A DNA stretch of 36,571 bases, taken from positions 1 to 36,571 of the IMG/VR virus record IMGVR_UViG_3300017719_000056; one strand, written 5' to 3'. Each line of letters begins with the position of its first letter. Positions within the stretch are counted from its first letter, which is position 1. Below are positions 7,454 to 35,313 of this stretch, in pieces. The translations under genes and the position numbers were made by a program. Source of the stretch: a virus. The notes beneath the pieces are model-generated. The model saw only the letters and a program-made list of their open reading frames with translations, searched no databases and was not told the origin of the DNA.

Positions 7454-7461
7454 TATAAATA
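7454..7461 (+). promoter_or_regulatory. T4-type late promoter (TATAAATA)
   Basis: A perfect TATAAATA lies in the 35-base gap between the gp7-like gene and the gp10-like gene, 23 bases before the next ATG. A purine-rich AAAAGAG sits in between as ribosome site. It would start a late transcript covering gp10-like, gp8 and the 1733-aa gene. Confidence 0.75.
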
Positions 7462-9694: not shown

Positions 9695-12600
9695 ATGACA
9701 ACCTCAGTAACAAATACCACATTTCCAATAACTTATAAAGATGATTTTGTAGATTCTGATAATTTTCACAGAGTTTTATTTAATTCAGGAAAAGCATTAC
9801 AATCCAGAGAATTGACCCAAATGCAGACAATTATCCAGGAGGAAATTGCTAGATTTGGTTCAAATATTTTTGTAGAAGGTGGTGTTGTTAATGGTTCCGG
9901 TTTCACGGTTAATAATAAATACGAATATATTAGACTTGCTGATGGTACACTTACAGGTGATGGTTCAAATCTTATAGGTATTGAATTTACTGAGGATGGT
10001 ACTGGTGTAAAATTTAAAATTTTAGAAGTTGTTAAAAGTGAGATCACTGGAGGCGATGATACACTATATGTTAGATATACAAATACTTCTGGTGGCACGA
10101 GTGGTTCCACTCCAGTAAGAGTTCAAAATAACGCGACTTTAACAGCGCCCACATTTGCTAATTTATTAGTTACTAATGAAAGCGCAACTGGTTCTGGTAC
10201 TCAAATTTCAATTGGTGCTGGCAGTTTTTTTGTTCAAGGTCATTTTGTATTTGCTACAGCCCAAACAGTTCTTGCATCATACTATTCATCAACTCCTACA
10301 CTAACTATGGGATTTAAAATTGATGAGGAAGTCATATCTGTTAACGATGATGCTACATTATATGATAATCAAGGTGCCGTACCTAATACTGCAGCGCCTG
10401 GTGCAGATAGATATAGAATTAAATTAACTCTTATTGACCAGGCAAATATTACCTCTGGTCAAAATTTCATATACCTATTTAAATTATTTAATGGTAACAT
10501 TTCCGATGAGGTCAGAAAAGATAATTCATATTCAACGATTAATGACGTTATGGCTCTTAGAACAAAAGAGGAATCAGGTAATTATATTGTAAAGGACTTT
10601 ACTGCCAATTTTGAAATTAATGACAGCGCTACTAGTCCAAATCTTACATTAAAAGTTTCCGACGGTACGGCCTATGTCGATGGATATAGAATTGAGTCAA
10701 GTGCAAAAGATATTATTGTAGAAAAAGCCCAGGATACCACAACAATTAATAGTGAAATTATTAGGGCATCATATGGTAATTTTATTGATGTACAGGGTGG
10801 TACAGATAATAAAGGTTTACCAAATATTAATAATTTTCAGAAAATAAATTTATCATCTGACTCTTCAGCAAATACTGCAGAAGTAATTGGTACTGCAAGA
10901 GTTAGGGCACTTTATAAACAAGGTACAGATACATATAGGGCATATTTATTTGATATCCAAATGAATTCGGGTGTAGCATTTTCAACTGCAAAATCAATAG
11001 GTGTAGATTCTAATGATTATATGAATTTTGTATTGGACGGTAGTCAGGCAATTTTAAAAAATACATCTCAAAATGATTTACTATTTCCATTACCTAACCC
11101 TAGACCGAGTGCAATAGATTATTCCAGTAGTGATATTCAGGTGCAAAGAAAAATTACATTTAGTACCGGTGGTGGTCAAACCAGTGTAACCAACATAACA
11201 GGAGCATTACCAGAAGGTGGCGCTGGCCCAGGAACAGGTTATGTCTATGAAGGAGCAAGTTCATGGATTCTTTCAGAGTCCGGTGGTGAGATTATAGAGC
11301 AAACACCTACCTTTCCATCTAATACCACTTTTACTTATGCTACCGGATTAACACAAAATACAAATTATGAGATTTTGGCGCAGGTTGAAAAAACACCATC
11401 TGCTAGAACAAAAACTCTTAACGAAACAACTCACGTTCATGCAGCAGACTGGCCTGCCGAAGCAGAATCGGATGGGACTGGAAGTCTTTATTTTAGTTTA
11501 AATAAGCCTGACATTTTTGAGGTTACCAGAATTCGACAAACCGATTCTAATGGTGTTGATCTTTCTGATAATTTTACACTTGATAATGGACAAAAAGATA
11601 ATTTTTATGGAATTGGTAGGTTGGCATTAAAACCTGGCAGATCTATTACAGGAAAAGTTTTTGCAAGATATAAATATTTTACACATACGGATGGTGACTT
11701 TTTTGATGTAAGTTCATATAATGCTATTCCATATGAAAAAATACCAAATCACACATTGGCCGATGGAACTACAATTAATTTAAGAGATTATGTTGATCTT
11801 AGACCAGTGGCAACAAAAGGACCAGGTAACGGATCCAAATTGGCTAGTTCGTATGCAACCTTTGATTCCAATGGTGCTGGTGGTAATCCAATAGTCAATT
11901 TTTTACCAGAAAATGGTAGCACATTTAGAGGTAATGTAACATATTATTTACCAAGAATTGACCGATTGGTCGCCTCAACCAAAACAGATGGTGGTGCAAA
12001 AAATAGACGTGGTGATATAAAAATTGTAAAAGGAACTCCGGATTTAAATCCACAACCACCTGTTATACCAAATGGTTCAATGCCTCTTTATAATTTAAGA
12101 TTAAATCCATATACTCTTAATGATTCCGATACCGAAGAAACAATTATTCCTGCTAAAGGTTTTACAATGGCAGATATTGCAACCTTGGAAAAACGAGTTG
12201 ACAATCTTGCTGAGTTAACAACATTAAGTTTACTTGAACTTGACACATCATCACTTACTGTATTGGATTCTGCAGGTTTAACAAGAACAAAGGCTGGATT
12301 CCTTGTTGATAATTTTAAAACCTCTGATTTTGCTGCCATTGATAGGGATGAATATAGGGCAGTTGCAGATATTTCTGAAGGAATTTTAACTCCAATTACA
12401 ATAGGTAAATCCACATCACTATACGTTGATTCATCCTACACATCGGTTGGCAATGAATATGTGATTAAAGGCGATACTGTAATGATGGAAATTGATTCCA
12501 ACCCAGTTGAAATTAATCAAATTCTTGCTACTGAATTTGAAAATATTAATCCATTTGCAGTTATTGTTTCCAGAGGTAGCACTACATTATCACCAGAAAC

Positions 12601-14896
12601 AGATGAATGGGTTGAAACAAAATGGTTGCCAAATAGAATTCAAAGTTCATCTTTAGGAACAATTTCACGAGCTCGAGCTCGAAACATTGCCAGACGTAAT
12701 TTTTCTGCTGCAGGTTTTAGAGATACCTGGTTTGGTAGAACTTCTGGTGCTGCTGTAGCAATTCGTGGTAATACAGGAACCATATCAAGAGTAGTTGGTA
12801 ATAGGGTTATTGACATTAGTGTCATACCATTTATGAGATCTAGAATTTTATTTTTTAAAACTCAAGGCTTAAGACCTAATACACAACACTTCCTAAGTTT
12901 TGGTGGCCAGGATATGACAAATTATGTTAGATCCGAATCCGCCTTTAAAAGAATTGCTGGTCTTACTGCTGGTAGAACTCAAACATATACGAATGCAGCT
13001 GCTCACCCAAATGGTGCATCAACAATAACAAGTGATAGTGCAGGGCAATTAATAGGATCATTCTTAATACCATCAACAAATAACTTAAGATTTAGAACTG
13101 GTATTCAGGAATTCTTACTAATGGATGTTACAGGTGGGCCAACAAATAGACCAAATTCAATATCAACATCAAGAGCATCATTTCAATCATCCGGTCAACT
13201 TGAAACAAGACAACGTGATGTAAACATTACAACATTTAGAATTGCACCACCTCCACCTCCACCACAGAATGAAGATAACGGTGATGGTAACGGTGATGGT
13301 ACTGATCCTCTTGCTCAATCTTTTCAGGTAGATCCAGTAGATAATCCTAATGGATATTTTATTACACAGATTGATGCATTTTTTAGAACAAAAGATGATG
13401 AAGGGGTGCCAGTTGAATGTCAAATCCGTGGTATGGAACAGGGGTCTCCAAATTCCAACGCACTACCTGGAGCAAGTGTATTCCTACCACCAGCATCGGT
13501 CAATATCCCAAGCGATTTAAATGATATGGCAACGGTTCAGGCTACGCCAACTACATTTACTTTTGAAGAACCAGTTTATGTACAACCAGGTAGAAGTTAT
13601 GCCGTTGTTCTTAAAGCAGAATCAACCAAATATAATGTTTATGTTGGAAAAACATATGATTTCGTATTAGGTTCAACAGAGGCTAGAATTAATAAGCAAC
13701 CTACATTAGGTTCACTATTCATGTCACAAAATGGTATTACCTGGACTGCAGATCAAACTAGAGATCTAATGTTTAGATTAAAAATTGCAAAATTCCAAAC
13801 TGCATCAAGTTCAGTTAAATTTAGAACTGCATTTCCACCGGATCTTGAATTAAACAATAACCCTATTTTAAGTGATTCCGGATCAACTTCACTAAAAATA
13901 TTACAAGAAGGTCACGGTCTTAATACTGGAAACAAAGTTACAATAACCGGTTTAGATTCTGCTATATCATATGCTGGTTTTAGGGGATTAAGTATTAATG
14001 GAACCCATACTGTTACCCGTGTTGATCATACAGGATTTATGATTGATCTAGGTGGATCTGCTGCAATTGCTTCATTGCAAACTGGTGGTGATGGTATTAT
14101 TATAACAAATAATATGCAATATGACCAATACGTACCTAGATTAAATGCATTTTTACCTGATGGCACATCATTAACAGGTGCTGAAATGGTTCACCAAGCA
14201 TCAAATTCATTTGGTAGTTTAAGGAATAATATTGGTGCCGGCAGTGGAGCTACTGGTAATACTGGTGGTGCTACTAGTGCGATAAAAATTGCCTTAAATG
14301 AATTTAACTTTACCGATGTACCATATGCAGTTTATGGGCCCGGTAATTTGGCAGAAGGTCAAACCACGCTTACACTTAATCTAGAAAATGGTGGTGATAC
14401 CAAGGTTTCGCCTGTAATTAATTTACAAAGGGCGTCACTGGTCGGATTTGAAACAGTTATTGATACTCAGGATTCTGGAGACCTGTTGCTTACTCCTAAT
14501 GTGCCTTTGGCCCGAATTGCTGAAACAGATGCCACAGGTGGCACATCTGCGGCAAAACATATTACAACACCGGTTGTGTTAGAGGAACCAGCTAAAGGTT
14601 TAAAAATTCTATTTGCTGGAAATAGACCTTCGGAATCTAAATTTAAGGTATATTTTAAAACTGCATCTGGTGATGAAGCACTTGATGATATATCATATAC
14701 CGTAATATCTGAATTTACAAATAATCCTTCTGATGAGGATAAAACCATTTTTAGACAATATGAATATTTGCCTGGTGGTATTGGTGGTAGACTTAGTGAT
14801 TTTACAAAATTTCAAGTAAAAATTGAAATGATAGGTACTAATATTGCAAAGGCTCCGTCGTTAAAAGATTTAAGAATACTTGCGTTGGTGACATAA
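9695..14896 (+). CDS. Giant virion structural protein with DUF4815 N-terminal domain
   Basis: This is a 1733-aa protein. The N-terminus (YKDDFVDSDNFHRVLFNSGK, then ALQSRELTQMQTIIQEEIAR, then FGSNIFVEGGVV) is the DUF4815 pattern found in the large structural proteins of marine T4-like phages. Residues 1185-1205 form a linker of six prolines followed by an Asp/Gly-rich NGDGNGDG stretch. After it comes a module (ADPLAQSF-like TDPLAQSFQVD, FITQIDAFFRTKDD, VYVQPGRSYAVVLKAES) that resembles a carbohydrate-binding beta-sandwich. A later repeat-type segment (HGLNTGNKVTITGL, about 1407) is like those in the 1805-aa gene. Position after gp8 suggests a baseplate-peripheral or fibre-proximal role. The precise function is not known. 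Confidence 0.8.
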   Translation: MTTSVTNTTFPITYKDDFVDSDNFHRVLFNSGKALQSRELTQMQTIIQEEIARFGSNIFVEGGVVNGSGFTVNNKYEYIRLADGTLTGDGSNLIGIEFTEDGTGVKFKILEVVKSEITGGDDTLYVRYTNTSGGTSGSTPVRVQNNATLTAPTFANLLVTNESATGSGTQISIGAGSFFVQGHFVFATAQTVLASYYSSTPTLTMGFKIDEEVISVNDDATLYDNQGAVPNTAAPGADRYRIKLTLIDQANITSGQNFIYLFKLFNGNISDEVRKDNSYSTINDVMALRTKEESGNYIVKDFTANFEINDSATSPNLTLKVSDGTAYVDGYRIESSAKDIIVEKAQDTTTINSEIIRASYGNFIDVQGGTDNKGLPNINNFQKINLSSDSSANTAEVIGTARVRALYKQGTDTYRAYLFDIQMNSGVAFSTAKSIGVDSNDYMNFVLDGSQAILKNTSQNDLLFPLPNPRPSAIDYSSSDIQVQRKITFSTGGGQTSVTNITGALPEGGAGPGTGYVYEGASSWILSESGGEIIEQTPTFPSNTTFTYATGLTQNTNYEILAQVEKTPSARTKTLNETTHVHAADWPAEAESDGTGSLYFSLNKPDIFEVTRIRQTDSNGVDLSDNFTLDNGQKDNFYGIGRLALKPGRSITGKVFARYKYFTHTDGDFFDVSSYNAIPYEKIPNHTLADGTTINLRDYVDLRPVATKGPGNGSKLASSYATFDSNGAGGNPIVNFLPENGSTFRGNVTYYLPRIDRLVASTKTDGGAKNRRGDIKIVKGTPDLNPQPPVIPNGSMPLYNLRLNPYTLNDSDTEETIIPAKGFTMADIATLEKRVDNLAELTTLSLLELDTSSLTVLDSAGLTRTKAGFLVDNFKTSDFAAIDRDEYRAVADISEGILTPITIGKSTSLYVDSSYTSVGNEYVIKGDTVMMEIDSNPVEINQILATEFENINPFAVIVSRGSTTLSPETDEWVETKWLPNRIQSSSLGTISRARARNIARRNFSAAGFRDTWFGRTSGAAVAIRGNTGTISRVVGNRVIDISVIPFMRSRILFFKTQGLRPNTQHFLSFGGQDMTNYVRSESAFKRIAGLTAGRTQTYTNAAAHPNGASTITSDSAGQLIGSFLIPSTNNLRFRTGIQEFLLMDVTGGPTNRPNSISTSRASFQSSGQLETRQRDVNITTFRIAPPPPPPQNEDNGDGNGDGTDPLAQSFQVDPVDNPNGYFITQIDAFFRTKDDEGVPVECQIRGMEQGSPNSNALPGASVFLPPASVNIPSDLNDMATVQATPTTFTFEEPVYVQPGRSYAVVLKAESTKYNVYVGKTYDFVLGSTEARINKQPTLGSLFMSQNGITWTADQTRDLMFRLKIAKFQTASSSVKFRTAFPPDLELNNNPILSDSGSTSLKILQEGHGLNTGNKVTITGLDSAISYAGFRGLSINGTHTVTRVDHTGFMIDLGGSAAIASLQTGGDGIIITNNMQYDQYVPRLNAFLPDGTSLTGAEMVHQASNSFGSLRNNIGAGSGATGNTGGATSAIKIALNEFNFTDVPYAVYGPGNLAEGQTTLTLNLENGGDTKVSPVINLQRASLVGFETVIDTQDSGDLLLTPNVPLARIAETDATGGTSAAKHITTPVVLEEPAKGLKILFAGNRPSESKFKVYFKTASGDEALDDISYTVISEFTNNPSDEDKTIFRQYEYLPGGIGGRLSDFTKFQVKIEMIGTNIAKAPSLKDLRILALVT
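13277..13300 (+). repeat. Tandem 12-base repeat, two copies, in a structural gene linker
   Basis: AACGGTGATGGT occurs twice back to back and encodes NGDGNGDG. It lies just after codons for six consecutive prolines (13247-13264). It marks a flexible, acidic hinge in the 1733-aa protein. Confidence 0.85.
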
Positions 14897-16571: not shown

Positions 16572-17057
16572 ATGGAAAATCATAATTTTGTAACCGCAAG
16601 ATTTACAAACAATGACAGAACAACTGTCATGGCAAGATGGGTATCAAAAACTGAAAAAGATGCAAATGGAGATCCGATATATCGTAATGAAAATATGTTG
16701 GCAGACGATAATAATGTTTTATTTCAGAATATTTTAAAACATATTTCTATTGACGGGTTGCACGAGAATACGGTTAATTGGGCTAGAGCTGAAAAAGAAG
16801 AGTACGATAAAATTATAGAAGATTTAGCCGTAAAGAGAGGTGAAATTGTAGATTATAAAGATGAAACTACTTTTATTAAAAAACTAACAGAAGTAATGGA
16901 TATAGATTATGAGACTGATAATGAATCATTATTTAAATGTAAATTATCGATATTTGAACTACCGCAGATTAAGAATTCCAAGAACAGATCGTTAAAAACA
17001 AAATTACGTAAAGCTAAATCCTTCCGTGAAGTAATAGAAGTGGTATTAAAATTCTAA
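16572..17057 (+). CDS. Uncharacterised 161-aa protein at the start of the accessory block
   Basis: I do not recognise this protein. It begins MENHNFVTARFTNNDRTTVM, a strand-like start, and is then charged and helical (WARAEKEEYDKIIEDLAVKR; LTEVMDIDYETDNESLFKCK). It ends with a basic helix (NRSLKTKLRKAKSFREVIEV). It has no signal peptide, membrane segment or catalytic motif. It follows the structural gene by one base, and the next gene's ATG comes directly after its stop, so it is co-transcribed with both. It could be a small virion or assembly protein that belongs to the upstream structural set rather than to the enzyme block. Confidence 0.5.
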   Translation: MENHNFVTARFTNNDRTTVMARWVSKTEKDANGDPIYRNENMLADDNNVLFQNILKHISIDGLHENTVNWARAEKEEYDKIIEDLAVKRGEIVDYKDETTFIKKLTEVMDIDYETDNESLFKCKLSIFELPQIKNSKNRSLKTKLRKAKSFREVIEVVLKF

Positions 17058-17798
17058 ATGAAAAATATATTATGTGTTAAGTGGGGCGATAAATATACCT
17101 CCGACCATGTGGAAAAATTAAAACAACAAGTGGAAAAACACTGCTCATACGATTTTAATTTTTACTGTCTTACCGATAGACCAGAAAAAGAATATGACGT
17201 TCAATTACCAACTTGGATGGATGATCATTACATTCCGGAAAAGAATTTTTTTTGGGCATATCGAAAATGTTATATGTTTGATCAAACAAAAATATTTGAT
17301 GATAAATCAGCCGATGACGAATTTTTATTTTTTGATATAGATGTATTACTACATAATACAATAGATCCATTATGGGAACTACCTATGGATAAACCTTATA
17401 TCGTAAGAGGATGGTGGAATGATATTAAGAACTGTCAAAAAAATTATGGTAAATTAAAATCAACTCCGTTAAATTCTTCAGTCATTAGATGGAATGGGTT
17501 GCAATTACATAGAGTATATAATCATATAAGAAAAAATGCACCCATGATTTTTTTTACATATAGAACTATTGATAATTATTTTAATCACTTTTTTTATAAT
17601 ATACATGATGAAGAGGAATCATTTTTCCGTGGCTATCCAAAAGGTATGATATATTCCTGGTATAAAGGTAATATATTTGATGAGGATATGGAATTAAAAA
17701 AAATAAGAAAAGACCATATGATATGCTTATTTAACAATAGCGCATCTGGAATTGATGAAGATATGAATGATATAAGTGAAATAAATGAATTATATTAA
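17058..17798 (+). CDS. GT-A-type glycosyltransferase with DxD motif
   Basis: This is a 246-aa protein. The N-terminal strand KNILCVKWGDKYTSDHV and the segment FNFYCLTDRPEKEYDV look like the nucleotide-sugar half of GT-A glycosyltransferases. The metal-binding motif is D93-I-D95 in FFDIDVLLHN. Further conserved-looking parts are PYIVRGWWND (about 113-122) and NSSVIRWNG (139-147). It is a paralogue of the gene at 22895, sharing start, DIDVLL and GWW elements. The predicted reaction is transfer of a sugar from a nucleotide sugar. Donor and acceptor are unknown. It overlaps the next gene by 14 bases. Confidence 0.75.
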   Translation: MKNILCVKWGDKYTSDHVEKLKQQVEKHCSYDFNFYCLTDRPEKEYDVQLPTWMDDHYIPEKNFFWAYRKCYMFDQTKIFDDKSADDEFLFFDIDVLLHNTIDPLWELPMDKPYIVRGWWNDIKNCQKNYGKLKSTPLNSSVIRWNGLQLHRVYNHIRKNAPMIFFTYRTIDNYFNHFFYNIHDEEESFFRGYPKGMIYSWYKGNIFDEDMELKKIRKDHMICLFNNSASGIDEDMNDISEINELY

Positions 17799-18435
17799 AT
17801 ATACTCCTTTTATTAGCAATAACTGGATGAGATCATTAAACTATGTGCATAAGGAAAAACCTCACTTATTTCAACGAGTATTAGATTCCTTCACAGAATC
17901 TCAACTTGAAAGTAAGCTATGGCTAAACAGCGAATTAAATAAAATTCAAAATGAATTTAATAATATAGCAGTAGTTGGTGGTTGGTATTGTCATATATTA
18001 AGTAATATATTAATAGAAAATTTTAATGCTAAGTTTGTTTGCAATTATGATATAGATAAGGATTCTAAAATATTAAGCTATAAATTTAATAAAAGATATA
18101 AAGACGAAAAAAAGTATTTTTGTAGCAACCGTAATTTATATTCAGTGTATGAATTTTTAGAAGGTAGACACCAATTGCATGGCCCTATTGATTTATTGAT
18201 AAATCCATCATGTGAACATATGTATTATATGAAAGATTTATTATCAAGGCAGTTTGAACGTGAAAAGCCTTTATGTGTTCTACAATCTACAGATAATGAT
18301 GAATATGACGATCATATAAATAGTGTAAAGGACCCAGAAGAATTAGCTGATCAAGCTAATTTAATAGATATAAAATTCATGGGTACTAAGAAACTAAGTA
18401 ATGGAATGAATAGGTTTATGGTTATAGGAAGATGA
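17785..18435 (+). CDS. SAM-dependent methyltransferase-like protein
   Basis: This is a 216-aa protein with a Rossmann-like pattern seen in a phage methyltransferase-like family. It has a strand plus glycine motif IAVVGGWYCHILSNILIENF, an acidic strand end NYDIDKDSK (second beta strand, probable ribose contact), INPSCEHMYYM, and the later VLQSTDNDEYDDHINSVKD. The C-terminal strand is GMNRFMVIGR. The likely reaction is methyl transfer from S-adenosylmethionine. The acceptor cannot be read from the sequence. It overlaps both neighbours (14 bases upstream, ATGA downstream), so it is part of one translation unit with the glycosyltransferase and radical SAM genes. Confidence 0.65.
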   Translation: MNYIKYTPFISNNWMRSLNYVHKEKPHLFQRVLDSFTESQLESKLWLNSELNKIQNEFNNIAVVGGWYCHILSNILIENFNAKFVCNYDIDKDSKILSYKFNKRYKDEKKYFCSNRNLYSVYEFLEGRHQLHGPIDLLINPSCEHMYYMKDLLSRQFEREKPLCVLQSTDNDEYDDHINSVKDPEELADQANLIDIKFMGTKKLSNGMNRFMVIGR

Positions 18436-19430
18436 TCGATAAAAATAAAATAACAGAAGTATATTCCGAAACTTTTAAAAATAATAATATTGCAAATTGT
18501 TCTTGGATAATGAACAGATATTGTAATTATAGCTGTAGCTACTGTTGGCCACATGCACATCAAAAACAAAAGGACTTCCTAACTGAAAATCAATACCTAA
18601 TGGCAATTAATGAAATTATAAACCAATTCCATGAAAATGGTTATAAAAAAATAAATTGGGGATTTAGTGGAGGAGAAATTACTTTTAATCCACACTTTTT
18701 AACCATTTTAAATGAGATACAATCATACATTGATGATTATACGCATATGTATACAAACTTAACCACGAATATGTCACAGTCCATGAAATGGTGGTCTAAA
18801 TTTGTAGAAAACACAAAATATTTTAAAAAGGTAAAAATAAACGGCTCATGGCACTCTGAATATCTTACAGATGAAAAAAAGAAAGAAGCTTTTAGTGATA
18901 AAATTTTATTTCTTGAATCATCAGGAATTACAACTGATGTAAACTATGTTATGATTCCAGGAAAGCTTGATTATGCCAAACACCTAATTGATTTTTTTAA
19001 GGAAAAAAACATTTTTATTTTAATAAAATCATGTAGATTAGGCAATAACTTAATTGATGGTTATACAAACGAGGAACTTAAATTTTTATCTAATAGCTCG
19101 AAAAATCAAATAAATCGCAAACTTGAAACCAAACTTGGAACTTCAAGAGCTAACGTTGTTATAAAAACTAAGGATGAAGAATTACGGTTTAAATCATTTG
19201 AAGAAACTTTTGCAGAATACACGATGTCCTATGAAGGATTTAATTGCACTGCAGGTCATCAAGCAATAACTATATATGAAAATGGAAATGTAACTCGAGG
19301 AAGGCGTTGCCGTAACGAAATTTTAGGTAACATTAAAACTGGTTTTAATTTACATACTAAAATAGAAAAATGTTACTCTAAAGGCAATTGTACTTGCTCG
19401 ACGGATTTAAAACTACCAAAATGGAAATAA
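18432..19430 (+). CDS. Radical SAM enzyme with C-terminal cysteine-rich (SPASM/twitch-like) region
   Basis: This is a 332-aa protein. The radical SAM [4Fe-4S] motif is C31-x3-C35-x2-C38 (CNYSCSYCW), followed by the GGE motif at G80-G81-E82 (GFSGGEITFNP). The C-terminal region has five further cysteines, C272, C293, C314, C320 and C322. This fits an auxiliary Fe-S cluster domain of SPASM/twitch type, which in known families occurs in enzymes acting on peptides, proteins or sugars. The short sequence ITIYENGNVTRGRRCRN is the usual SPASM start (a strand, a G-N/D-V turn, then a Cys). The ATG overlaps the previous stop (ATGA). The substrate is unknown. Confidence 0.85.
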   Translation: MIDKNKITEVYSETFKNNNIANCSWIMNRYCNYSCSYCWPHAHQKQKDFLTENQYLMAINEIINQFHENGYKKINWGFSGGEITFNPHFLTILNEIQSYIDDYTHMYTNLTTNMSQSMKWWSKFVENTKYFKKVKINGSWHSEYLTDEKKKEAFSDKILFLESSGITTDVNYVMIPGKLDYAKHLIDFFKEKNIFILIKSCRLGNNLIDGYTNEELKFLSNSSKNQINRKLETKLGTSRANVVIKTKDEELRFKSFEETFAEYTMSYEGFNCTAGHQAITIYENGNVTRGRRCRNEILGNIKTGFNLHTKIEKCYSKGNCTCSTDLKLPKWK

Positions 19431-19466
19431 ATAATAAAGAAATTTAAAACCAAACGGTATGAATAA

Positions 19467-19784
19467 ATGACTGATAAGGAAAATGATTTACACCAAGCCG
19501 TAGTTTACTCGCTGCAAAATGTTTTTGATCCTGAAATGCCTAGTGTTAGTATATACGATTTAGGTTTAATATATAAACTTGAAATCACAGGAGATAAGTG
19601 TTATGTTGAACACACACTTACCAGCATGGCTTGTCCTTTTGCAGACGAAATATGCAACGATATAGAACAGGCAATAATTAATACTCCTGGAATACGAGCA
19701 ATAGATAGACAATTGGTTTTTGAACCTATGTTTACCATGGAAATGGTACCTGAAGAAACAAAACTGATAATGGGTTGGTATTAA
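19467..19784 (+). CDS. MIP18/DUF59-family Fe-S cluster assembly protein (SufT/PaaD-like)
   Basis: This is a 105-aa protein with the family landmarks. DPEMPSVSIYDLGLIY (21-36) corresponds to the DPE(I/L)xxSI-DLGLI motif, and LTSMACPFADEI (51-62) contains the conserved Cys56. Members help load Fe-S clusters into target proteins. It is set between two radical SAM genes, both of which need [4Fe-4S] clusters, so supplying them is the simplest role. An in-frame stop at 19464-19466 excludes an earlier start. The 36-base gap before it is the widest inside the enzyme block. The stop and the next ATG overlap as TAATG. Confidence 0.85.
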   Translation: MTDKENDLHQAVVYSLQNVFDPEMPSVSIYDLGLIYKLEITGDKCYVEHTLTSMACPFADEICNDIEQAIINTPGIRAIDRQLVFEPMFTMEMVPEETKLIMGWY

Positions 19785-20479
19785 TGGATATAGTAGAATG
19801 GTGTAGAAAAAATGATATATGGTATTTAAAAATAGATTTACAAATACCTGAAGTCTGCATTAAAGAAGCTCAAAGAGTTTATGATGAAGGATTTTTTGTA
19901 GAACATCGTTATGGTGATGGAGATGGTTGGAAGTCCTCAGCCTTACATAGTTTTGTGCATAAAGATGAGAATAATACTAGTATGGGATGGCATCATACAA
20001 AAAATCCTTCTGGTCATGGTATAGCTGAAAATAATGTAAAGTGGGGATGGACAGAAGTTGCAGAAATAGCACCAGAGACTAAAAGGTGGTTGGAAGATTT
20101 TCCACACAAATATTACAGAAGGTGTAGGTTTATGTTATTAGAGCCTGGAGGTCATATAGTAAAACACAATGATTCCAATGAAAAAAGAAACTCTGAAGGA
20201 AGAAAGAGAAATATATCTGCTGCTATTAATCTTGCATTTTATCAACCAAAAAATTGTTATCTAAGAAGAGCATCAACAAAGGAAGAGCTACCTTTTAAAA
20301 ACTGTAGTGGGTTTTGGTTTGATAATGGAGTGGAACATGAAGCTTTAAATAATTCTAATGAAAATCGGTTTCATTTTATTATACATGGTGGTAGCAATAA
20401 GGAACGAAAACAACTAATGATGAAATCCTTAGTTAAACAATTTGGTAAAAATGTGTTAAAGGAAATAGATGATCAATGA
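19784..20479 (+). CDS. 2OG-Fe(II) oxygenase, aspartyl/asparaginyl beta-hydroxylase type
   Basis: This is a 231-aa protein. Chosen start: the ATG at 19784, in the TAATG overlap, rather than an upstream TTG. The iron ligands are H128-x-D130 (PGGHIVKHNDSN) and H185 (GVEHEALNN). R195 (NENRFHFIIHG) would bind 2-oxoglutarate. This arrangement and the RCRFMLLEPGG lead-in match the aspartyl/asparaginyl beta-hydroxylase fold, whose known members hydroxylate side chains in proteins or small amino-acid units. It differs in sequence from the prolyl-hydroxylase-type enzyme at 2093, so the window holds two oxygenases of different branches. The substrate is not shown. Confidence 0.82.
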   Translation: MDIVEWCRKNDIWYLKIDLQIPEVCIKEAQRVYDEGFFVEHRYGDGDGWKSSALHSFVHKDENNTSMGWHHTKNPSGHGIAENNVKWGWTEVAEIAPETKRWLEDFPHKYYRRCRFMLLEPGGHIVKHNDSNEKRNSEGRKRNISAAINLAFYQPKNCYLRRASTKEELPFKNCSGFWFDNGVEHEALNNSNENRFHFIIHGGSNKERKQLMMKSLVKQFGKNVLKEIDDQ

Positions 20480-21750
20480 TTTCAAACTTTGAAGAATTTG
20501 TTTTATTGTGGAATAATGATAGTGTAAAATATAAAAAAAAGTTAAAACATCTTTTATTTTTGGTAACATATCCAGATAATTTAAAATGGGATTTTTCTAT
20601 AGAAAAACAAACACAAACTACAACTCTAATGCTTTCTGGTGGTGATACTGGTGCTGGTTCCGGACACTATATAAAATTTTGTAGGCAAAGTAAGGCTAAT
20701 GAAATTTTAAAAGAGGAAATTAATTGCACTCATGCAATGATTTGTTCTGTAGGTTGGGTTGCAGATATGGTAAATTTACCAACGCCCATTACGAATTTTA
20801 ATGTTTTTTCTCAAAGTGATATGTATTGTAAAGCTCATATAATTGCAAGACCAGATAAAAATGCATATCTTCATCATCAACACATTGAATTAAATTTAAC
20901 AAAATGGAGAGAATTAGGTTGTCCAGATATATATGAAAAATGGAGTAGTTACACACGTTCTCAGGAAAATTATCACGATGACTATACGCCATATTGGATA
21001 ATACCAGAAGGTTTACCAAAGGTAGATAATTTTACACATAAGGAAAGAGAAAAAAAAGCATTTTCTTATTCACATAAAGATTATAATAAAGTATGGAAAG
21101 ATTTAAGTACAGTAGATAAACACGATTATTATTTTAGTAAATATATGTCAAGAATGAAGTTCACGTATTATGTATATAATACGGAAAAATATCTAGAGTT
21201 ACCAGATAAAAAATTTGATTTATATTTAGCCCCTACATCTGGGTATTTAACAGAGGAATATTGTTATAATAATAATTTTAAAGGAGATATAATACTTTAT
21301 GATTATGTCCAAAAAAATATAGATATAAAAAGAAAAATTATAGAAATGAACATGTCCTTTGACGAAATTAAAAAAATTAAATTTTTACTAAAAAGCAACA
21401 AGCATTCATTTTTTATAAAACAAAGTAATTCCGAGCATCCAGAAAAAAGTGATAATATACACAGTGAATATCAAAAAATGCAAGATGAAATGTTTAATAA
21501 TTGTAATATAGAATATTGGTTACTGAATTTAATAAAACCTGATTATGATAAAATTATTGAAAAAGTTAAGGGAAAAACAGTTTTCTTTAGAGCTACTAAT
21601 ATTTTTAGTTATCATCTATCTCATGCATATTATACCCTAGATGAACTTTTTGATTCATATTACGCACTTATAAATGCACTACAATATGCTGATGGTTGTT
21701 GGTTTATTGGAACAACACCAACGAAACAAAGAGTCAAGTTTTGGGTGTGA
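20476..21750 (+). CDS. Two-part protein, possible transferase plus Rossmann-like domain, function unknown
   Basis: This is a 424-aa protein. The N-terminal half starts with a strand (KHLLFLVTYPD), contains a glycine patch (SGGDTGAGSGH) and the segment HHQHIELNLTKWRELGCPDI. That segment resembles the acceptor-side region of some glycosyltransferase-like proteins, but no DxD motif is visible. The second half has FDLYLAPTSGYLTEEYCYNN and DIILYDYVQKNIDIKRKIIE, a pattern like a methyltransferase-type Rossmann fold (glycine turn, then an acidic strand end). It is very Lys/Asn/Tyr-rich and its DNA is visibly more A/T-rich than the structural genes. It overlaps both neighbours (ATGA and GTGA). No function is claimed. 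Confidence 0.6.
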   Translation: MISNFEEFVLLWNNDSVKYKKKLKHLLFLVTYPDNLKWDFSIEKQTQTTTLMLSGGDTGAGSGHYIKFCRQSKANEILKEEINCTHAMICSVGWVADMVNLPTPITNFNVFSQSDMYCKAHIIARPDKNAYLHHQHIELNLTKWRELGCPDIYEKWSSYTRSQENYHDDYTPYWIIPEGLPKVDNFTHKEREKKAFSYSHKDYNKVWKDLSTVDKHDYYFSKYMSRMKFTYYVYNTEKYLELPDKKFDLYLAPTSGYLTEEYCYNNNFKGDIILYDYVQKNIDIKRKIIEMNMSFDEIKKIKFLLKSNKHSFFIKQSNSEHPEKSDNIHSEYQKMQDEMFNNCNIEYWLLNLIKPDYDKIIEKVKGKTVFFRATNIFSYHLSHAYYTLDELFDSYYALINALQYADGCWFIGTTPTKQRVKFWV

Positions 21751-22898
21751 GTAAAATTACAATTAAAAATGCATATTGTGATGCTTTGTTTAATGAAATT
21801 TATACCAATCCTAATGGTAATTATAGATTTTGTTGTTTTGCACAAATGGTGCCAGATGAGTATAATATGAACTCTAAAACACACACTCCTTTTGAGTGGT
21901 TTAAATCTGATTATATGGAAGAGGTACGTAATGGCGCGCTTCAAGGTGTAAAACATCCTGCTTGTATTGCCTGTTGGAAAATGGAAGAGGCTGGTGGTGA
22001 ATCCTTTCGTACTATGAGGTATAATCAACACTCCTATACAGATATTACAGATGTTAAGTTAAATCTTGCATTAAGTAATGCTTGTAATTTATCTTGTTAT
22101 ATGTGTGGCCCAGAAAATTCCACCACAAAGCATAAAGAAATGGTAGAAGTATTTGGCAAAAATTCAAAATACTCTAGCGCATTTTTTGGTTTAGGATTTG
22201 CACTAAAACAAGATAATTATAAAAGATTAAAGAAAGATATCCTAAATCATATAACATATGTTAAGGCAATAAATCTTATAGGTGGAGAACCTATGATGAT
22301 TCCAGAAGTTTGGGATTTATTGGATTCTATAAGTAATGCTGATGCAAAAAATATAAGGTTATGTTGGATTACCAATATGACTAAAGTAGGATATAAAAAT
22401 TATAGTTTAGAGGATATAATTAAAAAGTTTAAAGAAGTTTCCTTTAATGTTTCATGTGATCATTATGGAATAAAAGAATCTTGGATTAGGTATCCAATTG
22501 ATATACAATCATTTGAGGCTAATTTAAGAAAGTATAAAAAATATATCTCTCAGATTCAAGTGACTGTAGGTATGCTTAATGCAACCGATCTTATAGAGAT
22601 AAGGGATTATTATAACTCTAATTTTAAATTAAATGTGGATTTTACTAATATAGTGTATTCAGTAACGTCAGGTGATCGTGGTGGTGTGACTATTATGAAT
22701 TTTCCCAAAGAACATAAATTATTATTAATTGATAAATATAAAAATGATAGCGATTTTAAATTAGTAGTGGAAATGTTGTCATCTAGTTTAGATGATGATT
22801 GTGAGGAATTATATAAAGACGCAATGGACTTTTGCCAAAAATTATCTGATCATAGAAAATTTCAGTTTAAGGATATATGGGATAACATACCATTATGA
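21747..22898 (+). CDS. Radical SAM enzyme with N-terminal cysteine (twitch-like) domain
   Basis: This is a 383-aa protein. Chosen start: the GTG at 21747, forming a GTGA overlap with the previous stop; an upstream TTG would add 17 unlikely residues. Residues 1-90 hold C11, C29, C30, C73 and C76 in the pattern of a SPASM/twitch Fe-S domain (YRFCCFAQ ... W..SDYMEEVR ... GVKHPACIACWKMEEAGGES). Next comes the radical SAM motif C113-x3-C117-x2-C120 (NACNLSCYMC) and GGEP at 179-182. The auxiliary-type domain is thus placed before the catalytic barrel, the reverse of the usual order, as in the 'twitch-domain' radical SAM proteins found in phages. The substrate is unknown. Confidence 0.82.
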   Translation: MSKITIKNAYCDALFNEIYTNPNGNYRFCCFAQMVPDEYNMNSKTHTPFEWFKSDYMEEVRNGALQGVKHPACIACWKMEEAGGESFRTMRYNQHSYTDITDVKLNLALSNACNLSCYMCGPENSTTKHKEMVEVFGKNSKYSSAFFGLGFALKQDNYKRLKKDILNHITYVKAINLIGGEPMMIPEVWDLLDSISNADAKNIRLCWITNMTKVGYKNYSLEDIIKKFKEVSFNVSCDHYGIKESWIRYPIDIQSFEANLRKYKKYISQIQVTVGMLNATDLIEIRDYYNSNFKLNVDFTNIVYSVTSGDRGGVTIMNFPKEHKLLLIDKYKNDSDFKLVVEMLSSSLDDDCEELYKDAMDFCQKLSDHRKFQFKDIWDNIPL

Positions 22899-23596
22899 AA
22901 ATAATTGCAGTTAGAATTGGTGATAGGTACGGTCCTGAGTATGAAACATATTTAGAGTCCAAATTACCAGAATATGAATTTATTTGGATTCGAGAACCGA
23001 TCCGTAGTGACGTCGTTTTACAATGGAATAAAATGTATGGAATGAATCTTGATATTGATGAACCAGTTTGTGTGATGGATATAGATGTTTTACTGGTTGG
23101 TGAATACAAAAAAGTATTTAAATATCCAATAAAACAAGGTGAGTTTTTAGCCATGCCTGGTTGGTGGAGAGATACTAATAAGGAAAAATATAAAATTAAT
23201 GGTGGTTTCTTTAAATATTACCCAAAAGATTGTAAATACATATATGATGAGTTTATGAGTAATACTGATAAATGGCAAAGGTATTATATTGATAATGGAA
23301 TAACAAATGGTCCGGTTAACGGTGAGCAATATTTTGTTGAGGATCATGTAAGACAAAAATTAAAATTAAAACTATTACCAAATGCATGGTTCACAAGATG
23401 GATGTCATCTGAAAATAATGGCATGACTGAAAAACAATATAGAACCTGGCAGTATAATATTACTAAAAAATACTGCGATTTAACTGGTAACGATTATTTG
23501 TTTATGGGCGATTTTCATTCAGATATAAAATTTATACATTTTACACATATGTTAAATAAACCTCATAGTTGGAAGCATTATTCTGAGTATACATAA
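22895..23596 (+). CDS. GT-A-type glycosyltransferase with DxD motif (paralogue)
   Basis: This is a 233-aa protein related to the gene at 17058. It has the N-terminal strand MKIIAVRIGDRYGPEYETYL, the metal motif D62-I-D64 in MDIDVLLVGE, FLAMPGWWRDT (about 84-94) and NGGFFKYYP (102-110), which matches the NSSVIRWNG position of the paralogue. Near the C-terminus IKFIHFTHMLNKPHSW has the histidine typical of metal or diphosphate binding in GT-A enzymes. It probably transfers a sugar from a nucleotide sugar. Acceptor is unknown. The ATG overlaps the radical SAM stop (ATGA). Confidence 0.75.
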   Translation: MKIIAVRIGDRYGPEYETYLESKLPEYEFIWIREPIRSDVVLQWNKMYGMNLDIDEPVCVMDIDVLLVGEYKKVFKYPIKQGEFLAMPGWWRDTNKEKYKINGGFFKYYPKDCKYIYDEFMSNTDKWQRYYIDNGITNGPVNGEQYFVEDHVRQKLKLKLLPNAWFTRWMSSENNGMTEKQYRTWQYNITKKYCDLTGNDYLFMGDFHSDIKFIHFTHMLNKPHSWKHYSEYT

Positions 23597-23600
23597 TACC

Positions 23601-24296
23601 ATGAAACACTTTATTATTACCATTGAAAATCATATTGATTCTGAATTTGCCTCTGAAACTTGTATAGAGTCCTCAAAGAAAGTAGGTAACAATTTTAGCA
23701 TTGATATCCGAAAGGCCATAGTTCCTGAGCAAGTAAATTCTCTTTTAATTAAAGAAAATATTCAATGGACGTATCCTGATATCCATAAAATAGATTTTAA
23801 ATCCGGTTTAACTCTACACCCTTATGTGACAAAAAATAAAAATGCAAGAATTGCTTGTGGATTAAGTCACTATTTACTATGGAAAGAGTGTGCGGAATCC
23901 AACGAACCATATTTAATTTTGGAACATGATTCTATGTTTATAAAAAAATTAAATTATGATTATATTTTGGACAGTAAATATGATATAATAGGTATTAATG
24001 ATCCACGTCATGCTACTCGTAAATCAAATATTTTTTATAGCAAAATTATGGATTCAAAGGTGGATATTTTACCACCACCAAAAGTTGATGATATGGCAGT
24101 ACCACAAGGACTGGCCGGTAATTCTGCATATATCATAAAACCAACAGGAGCACGAAAAGTTATTAATGCTGTAAAGGATTATGGCTTATGGCCTAATGAT
24201 GCTATTATGTGCCAACAATTGATAAAAGGTATGGGTGTAACAAGAAATTTTTACACAAAAGTACAAAATATGGCATCTTCCACGACTCGAGATTGA
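23601..24296 (+). CDS. GT25-type glycosyltransferase
   Basis: This is a 231-aa protein resembling family GT25, which includes LPS/LOS galactosyltransferases of bacteria and the collagen galactosyltransferases of animals. Landmarks are ARIACGLSHYLLWKECAESN (82-101), the acidic motif LILEHDSMF with E108 and D110, LAGNSAYIIKPTGARKVI (161-178) and the later NDAIM. The expected reaction is transfer of a sugar onto a glycan or hydroxylated residue; the exact one is unknown. It is the last gene of the enzyme block. A late promoter and a virion gene follow within 70 bases. Confidence 0.78.
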   Translation: MKHFIITIENHIDSEFASETCIESSKKVGNNFSIDIRKAIVPEQVNSLLIKENIQWTYPDIHKIDFKSGLTLHPYVTKNKNARIACGLSHYLLWKECAESNEPYLILEHDSMFIKKLNYDYILDSKYDIIGINDPRHATRKSNIFYSKIMDSKVDILPPPKVDDMAVPQGLAGNSAYIIKPTGARKVINAVKDYGLWPNDAIMCQQLIKGMGVTRNFYTKVQNMASSTTRD

Positions 24297-24302
24297 TTTT
24301 AT

Positions 24303-24310
24303 TATAAATA
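24303..24310 (+). promoter_or_regulatory. T4-type late promoter (TATAAATA)
   Basis: A perfect TATAAATA lies in the 68-base gap between the GT25 gene and the next virion gene, in the same TTATAAATAAAACAAAA context as at 4111. It restarts late transcription after the enzyme block. The leader it would produce is about 50 bases and includes a short hairpin. Confidence 0.78.
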
Positions 24311-34174: not shown

Positions 34175-35050
34175 ATGAGGAATTTTGCATTTTCCGAAAA
34201 AGTTAGATCAGAACAAAATTTGTTCGAAGATATTATTATTGAATCATTAAAAATTTATGGTCAGGATATATATTATCTTCCTCGTGATATAGTTAACGAA
34301 GATACCATTTTTGGCCAGGATGTTCCCTCCTCGTTTAATTCATCTTACCGTATAGAAATGTATATTGATAATATTGAAGGATTTGAAGGCGAGGGTGATT
34401 TATTTAGTCGATTTGGCGTAGAAATTCGTGATGAAGCCACATTTGTTGTTTCACGTAGAAGATGGAAACAAACCGTAGATAAATATGATAATGACATCAC
34501 AGGCGACAGGCCACGTGAAGGCGATTTAATCTTTTCAAGGTTAACAAATAAACTATTTGAAATCACTCACGTAGAACACGAACAACCGTTTTATCAATTA
34601 AATAATTTACCTGTTTTTAAACTTAGAGCTCAACTTTTTGAATATAATGATGAGAATTTGGATACTGGTGTTACAGCAATTGACAAAATTGAAAAAGATT
34701 ATGCATATACATATTTAGTTACATTAGGCGAAGGAGGTGATGTGGTAATAGGTAATACTGCCACACAAACACTTTCAAGCGGTGTTAAAATAACCGGTGA
34801 GGTATCAAAATATTCAGATACCGACAAAATATTACATTTAATACATGTTGGTGCTGATGATGGTGAATATCATACATTTGTTACTGGTATAAATATTTTT
34901 GTTAATGGTCTTAGTAGAACAGTTATTGCAGTATCAGAAGAGAATAAAATTTCACAAAATGAACAGAATGATGGATTTTCTGATTTTGGCGGTTCTGATT
35001 TCTTAGATTTTACAGAGTCTAATCCATTTGGCGACCCGGAGAATAATTAA
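34175..35050 (+). CDS. 14: Neck protein gp14 (head-tail connector)
   Basis: This is a 291-aa protein of the T4 gp14 family. Shared parts include LFEDIIIESLKIYGQDIYYL with PRDIVNEDTIFGQDV (T4 has YYLPREYVNIDLIFGEDL), the FEGEGDLFSRFGVEIRDE region, PREGDLIFSRLTNKLFEITH and PFYQLNNLPVFKL. gp14 makes the lower neck ring that binds the tail terminator gp15. It is longer than T4 gp14 (256 aa). The extra C-terminal part (about 195-291) contains a strand-rich segment and an acidic, Asp/Phe-rich tail ending DFTESNPFGDPENN. The ribosome site AGGATA precedes the ATG. Confidence 0.93.
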   Translation: MRNFAFSEKVRSEQNLFEDIIIESLKIYGQDIYYLPRDIVNEDTIFGQDVPSSFNSSYRIEMYIDNIEGFEGEGDLFSRFGVEIRDEATFVVSRRRWKQTVDKYDNDITGDRPREGDLIFSRLTNKLFEITHVEHEQPFYQLNNLPVFKLRAQLFEYNDENLDTGVTAIDKIEKDYAYTYLVTLGEGGDVVIGNTATQTLSSGVKITGEVSKYSDTDKILHLIHVGADDGEYHTFVTGINIFVNGLSRTVIAVSEENKISQNEQNDGFSDFGGSDFLDFTESNPFGDPENN

Positions 35051-35313
35051 TGAGTACTGATATTTTTGATTTTGGTTTTACAGCAGTTGATGAGCAAGAA
35101 TTAGAATCTGTTCAAAAAGCGACAACACAATTAGACAAGGCAGCGTCTACAGCATCATCAACCCAAGAAAAATTAGATAAATTGTATAACGCAATTGTGC
35201 CACTTTTAAATAATTTAAAAAAGAATCCAGAAAAGGACTATATATTGTGGCCGGACAGATTAACAAAGGTAGAGGCCTTCGAAGATCACTTACAGAACAT
35301 TTATAAAGGTTAA
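35050..35313 (+). CDS. Small conserved protein between gp14 and gp15
   Basis: This is an 87-aa protein. The N-terminus IFDFGFTAVDEQELESVQKA, a coiled-coil middle (TASSTQEKLDKLYNAIVPLL), and the ending NPEKDYILWPDRLTKVEAFE form a pattern I recognise from marine T4-like phages, where a small gene occurs near the neck genes. T4 itself has no gene between 14 and 15. It starts in the stop of gp14 (TAATG) and ends 2 bases before gp15. A neck or tail assembly role is likely from position. Biochemical function is unknown. Confidence 0.7.
   Translation: MSTDIFDFGFTAVDEQELESVQKATTQLDKAASTASSTQEKLDKLYNAIVPLLNNLKKNPEKDYILWPDRLTKVEAFEDHLQNIYKG

Follow-up and report, generated by a model that had tools for sequence, protein, structure and literature searches.

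In a published account of pelagimyophages (PMC7029224), the genomic island between VrlC and gp14 is described as a host recognition cluster (HRC), in which GT8 is the most common glycosyltransferase (GT) family. The current study examines such an island in the IMG/VR virus record IMGVR_UViG_3300017719_000056, the full 36,571 bases of which are referred to here as the window, and concerns a cassette of nine enzyme genes located within it. As an island of a T4-like marine phage situated between a VrlC/DUF4815-like gene and gp13/gp14, this locus corresponds to the known pelagimyophage HRC. It includes a conserved core of five genes encoding two GTs (GTa and GTb), a methyltransferase-like protein (c2), a 2-oxoglutarate (2OG)-Fe(II) oxygenase (c5), and a predicted fusion protein (c6), and we favor the interpretation that this core specifies a late-expressed cytoplasmic glycan-modification pathway with a virion protein as its target, a view in which our confidence is about evenly divided. 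The island has long been known to be hypervariable and is usually filed as host-recognition or lipopolysaccharide (LPS) cargo; a fixed core of five enzymes provides a testable pathway with named enzymes, through which it could be settled whether marine phages modify their own tails or the host cell. The genes under discussion are as follows, in window coordinates.

9695-14896: VrlC/DUF4815-like gene, flanking the island; 31% to the VrlC of phage Mosig
15560..16570, + strand: F7, structural-type protein encoded immediately before the island; used as anchor gene, and one candidate substrate
16572..17057, + strand: F8, conserved small protein between F7 and the island
17058..17798, + strand: c1 (GTa), GT-A-type glycosyltransferase of the core, DxD at residues 93-95
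17785..18435, + strand: c2, class I S-adenosylmethionine (SAM) methyltransferase-like by predicted fold; member of both the core and the rSAM1/c2/MIP18 set
18432..19430, + strand: c3 (rSAM1), radical SAM protein with CNYSCSYC and SPASM/twitch-like C-terminal cysteines
19467..19784, + strand: c4 (MIP18), MIP18/DUF59 Fe-S assembly-type protein (PF01883)
19775..20479, + strand: c5, Asp/Asn-hydroxylase-type 2OG-Fe(II) oxygenase of the core (PF05118)
20476..21750, + strand: c6, core protein; in the predicted model, a GT-A-like domain (residues ~20-227) fused to a methyltransferase-like domain (228-424)
21747..22898, + strand: c7 (rSAM2), twitch-domain radical SAM protein with CNLSCYMC and a GTG start; variable cargo
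22895..23596, + strand: c8 (GTb), GT-A-type glycosyltransferase of the core, DxD at residues 62-64
23601..24296, + strand: c9 (GT25), GT25-family glycosyltransferase (PF01755); variable cargo
From 33416: gp13/gp14, the other flank of the island

Relationship to described systems

The published HRC shares with this locus its position, its occurrence in T4-like marine phages, its GTs, its radical SAM cassettes, and an Asp/Asn hydroxylase among its core proteins (PMC7029224). That account is one of variability and LPS modification, however, and its available part describes neither a fixed core, a fusion protein, nor the association of rSAM1, c2, and MIP18; likewise, we found no description of these three features in the other papers searched. 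The preliminary description of this DNA, which knew of no described phage pathway with such a set of enzymes, is therefore upheld for the exact set only and not for those of its parts already present in the HRC.

A related but different version of the island is found in the SAR11 phage Mosig EXVC030M (MT647606), which encodes homologues of F7 (30%), c2 (28%), and GTb (28%) among neighbors that include a carbamoyltransferase, MoaA-like radical SAM proteins, nitroreductases, an epimerase, and an aminotransferase. Unlike the window, the stretch of Mosig examined yielded no detectable homologues of c5 or c6, and its island genes are inverted relative to the tail genes. Phage-encoded GTs that act on virion proteins are known from mycobacteriophages such as Che8, Corndog, and Myrna, the capsid and tail tube proteins of mycobacteriophages being glycosylated by their own enzymes (PMC12363180, citing Freeman 2023). 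These systems are described there as depending on GTs, with no mention of a core made up of hydroxylase, radical SAM, or methyltransferase genes, and both the host and the phage type are unrelated to those considered here. We found no published account of virion glycosylation in marine phages in the literature collection searched. The logic of hydroxylating and then glycosylating a target is shared with the collagen lysyl hydroxylase/glycosyltransferase LH3 and mimivirus L230/R699 (PMC9546862), although c5 is of the AspH type instead of being a lysyl hydroxylase and the likeness of c6 is at the level of fold only, with 5–12% identity. A collagen-like substrate, as might be imagined from the LH3/R699 matches, was considered and rejected, as no run of at least six GXY triplets occurs in the window proteins. 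A Gtr-type serotype conversion cassette, which would entail a membrane flippase and membrane glycosyltransferases, was rejected as well, since the nine proteins are devoid of membrane-type segments.

A conserved five-gene core

A search of IMG/VR with c5 recovered 42 loci, 25 of which (the window included) span F7 to gp13. GTa, c2, c5, c6, and GTb are all present and in the same order in 25/25 of these, gaps in gene picking among the c5-found loci having been filled by tblastn. Because c5 had served as bait, the search was repeated with an alignment of c6; a scan with the single c6 sequence gave 0 matches and the alignment-based scan gave 273. Among the c6-found loci that extend 4.5 kb in either direction, all four core partners are in place in 32 of 33, the c6-found and c5-found sets having some contigs in common. 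Distances for the core genes are mutually correlated (r 0.42–0.69) and are correlated with those of gp13 as well (r 0.43–0.55). The relatives of the window are metagenomic contigs, and conservation in dozens of them rules out chance as the source of this arrangement. One locus, L284, lacks the 2OG gene.

Relatives of rSAM2 occur at various positions and on either strand, and the islands of the relatives yielded no GT25; both genes are variable cargo. The co-occurrence that the preliminary description had put forward as a check on the cassette is evident for the five core genes and for an overlapping set of rSAM1, c2, and MIP18, and not for a block of nine genes. A fixed nine-gene unit is ruled out, with rSAM2, GT25, rSAM1, and MIP18 not being constant parts of the core, while joint action on one substrate, as had also been proposed, is plausible.

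A wider association becomes apparent when F7 is used as bait. We retained 80 F7 loci, some of them near-identical, of which 47 have 7 kb downstream, and within that distance c2 occurs in 45/47, a GT in 43/47, and either of the two in 46/47, as compared to only 5/47 for the 2OG gene and only 3/47 for c6. Consequently, c2 and GT form the broader association, of which the 2OG/c6 core is a subset. Since the orientation of c2 and GT varies, this linkage to F7 survives rearrangement. F8 homologues form a family found in 29 of the first loci and in 72/80 F7 loci; F8 has no family match, and F7 has no match in Pfam or PHROG. Encoded around the constant core or F7 are carbamoyltransferases, GDSL proteins, a GT8 family, NAD epimerases, DegT aminotransferases, a GNAT acetyltransferase, and radical SAM proteins, which together make up a glycan-building repertoire.

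Among gp13-found loci with 9.9 kb upstream, core genes occur in 0/12, and as most of these belong to other T4-like lineages, this result indicates that the core is lineage-bound and nothing more. The closest gp13 relative (L134, 92%) has 7.4 kb upstream, which is too short to reach the cassette. In a collection of 50,697 catalogued phage records, which may leave out records very near the window, matches are absent for c5, c6, and rSAM1 and, for c2, c8, and F7, are confined to a distant one in Mosig.

A second recurrent set

The c2 search reached distant viruses at ~30% identity, and in 22 of the 79 c2-found loci an rSAM1 gene lies no more than 300 nt away from c2 and in the same orientation. 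Three of the distant loci (L342, L349, and L363) have the arrangement rSAM1, c2, MIP18, as opposed to c2, rSAM1, MIP18 in the window, and this rejoining of the same three genes in a different order in distant phages argues for a functional link between them. Their recurrence across distant viruses points to a new radical SAM–methyltransferase partnership. Relatives of MIP18 at 68–87% are present in five other viral contigs; among catalogued phages, MIP18 matches are limited to unannotated records at ~40% or less. With functions judged by eye, a marine virus contig (L050:4504-10785) places MIP18 in a sugar-building cluster whose other genes are those for a carbamoyltransferase, an epimerase, a DegT-like aminotransferase, and a deacetylase-like protein, and one of the five contigs encoding a MIP18 relative has carbamoyltransferase, GDSL, radical SAM, epimerase, and aminotransferase neighbors.

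Radical SAM genes also occur in larger arrays. One viral contig of 382 kb has a run of at least seven of them (L002:5726-14888), one with a B12-binding domain, next to genes for a UDP-sugar dehydrogenase and a methyltransferase resembling c2. At distant c2 loci (L310:1060-12472), SPASM/twitch radical SAM proteins, 2OG oxygenases, and GDSL proteins are encoded in dense arrays, which suggests a widespread virus modification repertoire.

Features and predicted structures of the cassette proteins

The nine adjacent enzyme open reading frames (ORFs) are in place on the + strand at 17058–24296 as originally reported, and 7/8 of the internal junctions are overlaps or gaps of <5 nt. From the entry into the cassette onward, the junction series is 0, -14, -4, +36, -10, -4, -4, -4, and +4, in which the -4 before rSAM2 assumes a GTG start. 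The likely start of rSAM2 is this GTG at 21747, overlapping the c6 stop (GTGA), as opposed to the TTG at 21696 of a mechanical ORF list.

All five of the original assignments with Pfam counterparts exceed their cut-offs: rSAM1 (PF04055, 35.0 bits vs 29.5), MIP18 (PF01883, 54.0 vs 23.5), c5 (PF05118, 39.5 vs 22.6), rSAM2 (PF04055, 39.8 bits), and GT25 (PF01755, 51.5 vs 24). In addition, rSAM2 scores 234 bits with NF033640 against a curated cut-off of 170, and MIP18 falls below the curated cut-off of the SUF-associated equivalog TIGR02945 (89.9 vs 143.4 bits). The Fe/2OG residues of c5 (H131, D133, H188, and R198) are invariant across 25 sequences. The two proteins initially recognized as DxD glycosyltransferases, c1 and c8, have no Pfam match; they cluster together and share a DxD that is invariant across 31 aligned sequences. 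A weak match to PHROG 1962 glycosyltransferase was obtained for c1 (E 1.2e-4), and the pair exhibits a weak likeness to GT8 (LgtC E 0.066; hhalign probability 19 to a GT8 family).

Neither a PHROG search nor a sequence search of solved structures yielded a family or a significant match, respectively, for c2, c5, or c6. AlphaFold2 models of c2 and c6 built from alignments of relatives were compared with known folds, with Z scores that cover only Foldseek's candidates. The c2 model (predicted local distance difference test [pLDDT] 82) has 837 matches in the Protein Data Bank at E <= 0.001, with a methyltransferase fold throughout among the matches listed, the best being the Nod-factor N-methyltransferase NodS (Z 15.8, 173 aligned residues, root-mean-square deviation 2.8). 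Its early designation as methyltransferase-like is therefore consistent with a predicted class I methyltransferase fold. The c6 model (pLDDT 90.8) consists of two domains, of which residues 20–227 resemble the GT-A glycosyltransferase LARGE1 (Z 8.8) and residues 228–424 resemble OvoA/OvsM/NNMT (Z 8.5–10.7), and its top Foldseek matches include LH3 and mimivirus R699. The prediction for what had been a two-part unknown is accordingly a fusion of GT-A-like and methyltransferase-like domains. Sequence kinship of the C-terminal half with c2, or of the N-terminal half with GTa, GTb, or GT8, was considered and set aside, as no significant profile match was obtained.

Late promoters

The motif TATAAATA, the core of the T4 late promoter, has nine exact matches in the window, all on the + (coding) strand and none on the other. 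Their total is no more than expected by chance; three sites are wholly intergenic, an enrichment with P ~5e-5. Two of the sites frame the region of interest.

7454..7461, + strand: T4-type late promoter motif before the gp8/VrlC/F7 stretch; of the exact intergenic matches upstream of the cassette, the closest one
24303..24310, + strand: T4-type late promoter motif TATAAATA immediately past the end of the cassette and ahead of 24365

Exact intergenic sites in the window thus flank a stretch composed of tail genes plus the cassette. Among the relatives, TATAAATA precedes gp13 in 36/37 and is present at 0/183 junctions before GT, c2, 2OG, or c6 genes. A scan for -35/-10 promoters found no more than in shuffles. 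On the simplest reading of this promoter layout, the core appears to be co-transcribed with the late tail genes.

Function of the core

Based upon these features, several steps can be proposed. The 2OG oxygenase c5 would hydroxylate the target, upon which the DxD glycosyltransferases c1 and c8, together with the GT-A-like half of c6, would build a short glycan, while c2 and the methyltransferase-like half of c6 would cap the sugars or the target with methyl groups. In this particular genome, rSAM1 and its presumed Fe-S helper MIP18, rSAM2, and GT25 may further tailor the product. The target would most likely be a tail, baseplate, or fiber protein encoded within the same operon, in which case the adhesion apparatus could be chemically diversified by swapping cargo enzymes. 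The reactions, their order, and the substrate are all inferred, from several lines of evidence. Firstly, glycan or glycoconjugate chemistry is suggested by the conserved GTs, methyltransferases, and hydroxylase along with the surrounding sugar-making and sugar-capping genes. Secondly, nearly all of the 697 island proteins resemble those of the cassette in lacking membrane-type segments, with only 6/697 reaching a Kyte-Doolittle (KD) value of 1.8, and this absence of membrane-type proteins places the chemistry in the cytoplasm, where virions assemble. Thirdly, the apparent late co-transcription with tail genes, the lack of membrane or export genes, and the mycobacteriophage precedent argue for a virion protein as the target. 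If so, receptor binding would depend upon post-translational chemistry that is ignored by sequence-based host prediction. It is possible, if rather doubtful, that the scheme applies in its most elaborate form, in which a virion protein is hydroxylated, receives a methylated glycan, and is further diversified by radical SAM and other cargo enzymes as a combinatorial tail chemistry of an uncultured marine lineage.

Several observations weigh against the virion-protein pathway. In three loci (L007–L009), the 2OG gene neighbors gp13 and the rest of the core is missing. F7 is independent of the core, since one locus (L201) has F7 with a short interval, a GNAT-like gene, and almost no island, and in another (L118) F7 is accompanied solely by an epimerase and genes of the GT8 type. 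The absence of a DxD from the GT-A-like half of c6, where HxQH and HDD are the invariant motifs, makes the catalysis of this half doubtful. The likeness of c1 and c8 to GT8/LgtC, albeit weak, is to an LPS-associated family (PMC7029224). Peripheral enzymes of the LPS core would similarly have no membrane segments, and the hydroxylase could target a lipid instead of a protein.

It is accordingly the host surface that supplies the best-surviving alternative, which we regard as unlikely while still a serious contender: the enzymes would alter host LPS or another surface glycan, thereby blocking superinfection or the re-adsorption of progeny to debris. PF05118 also includes LpxO-type lipid hydroxylases, and the epimerase, DegT aminotransferase, carbamoyltransferase, and acetyltransferase genes would fit surface-polysaccharide loci. 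O-chain modification against coinfection is, moreover, the published reading of the pelagimyophage island (PMC7029224). Conversely, genes for a flippase, a polymerase, a ligase, or a membrane protein of the GtrA/GtrB kind are missing, and a core that lacks its own promoter and is apparently co-transcribed with late tail genes would be expressed late for superinfection exclusion.

A cargo hotspot downstream of F7, with nine enzymes that share no common product, would account for the variable presence, position, and strand of rSAM2, GT25, and many accessory genes in an island known to be hypervariable (PMC7029224). We consider this quite improbable, however, as five genes retain their order and identity in nearly all c6-found loci and evolve together, and rSAM1, c2, and MIP18 come together again, differently arranged, in distant phages. 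Less probable still is a diffusible or peptide-derived product made by radical SAM and 2OG enzymes acting upon a small molecule or precursor peptide, given that no transporter or conserved small precursor ORF was found in the core, its conserved set consists of GT, methyltransferase, and hydroxylase genes, and the accessory genes are of the sugar type, even though SPASM/twitch radical SAM proteins often mature peptides (the NCBIfam similarities here being sub-threshold) and radical SAM genes are strung together in L002 and L310.

Other features of the window

The T4-like tail and neck genes of the window place structural genes on both sides of the cassette, as previously noted, with gp25, gp6, gp8, and the giant VrlC/DUF4815-like protein on one side and gp13, gp14, and gp15 on the other. 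The window is a fragment of an uncultured T4-like (Kyanoviridae-type) marine phage. The nearest relative of its gp6 is that of the Kyanoviridae phage C48C1 (46%), followed by those of other marine T4-like phages, and no direct DNA relatives of the window were found among catalogued phages. The G+C content of the cassette is 27–31%, compared with ~32–37% on either side.

A locus with a complete core and gp13–15 (L214) has been binned in a Flavobacteriales metagenome-assembled genome, which hints weakly at the host unless the contig was misbinned. Toward the opposite end of the window, a gene among those for the tail fibers (2093–2803) encodes a second 2OG-Fe(II) oxygenase (PF13640). Lastly, an 87 amino acid protein encoded between gp14 and gp15 (35050–35313) has a 64% match in phage C48C1, and as the C48C1 copy is located elsewhere in its genome and on the other strand, this gene has moved.

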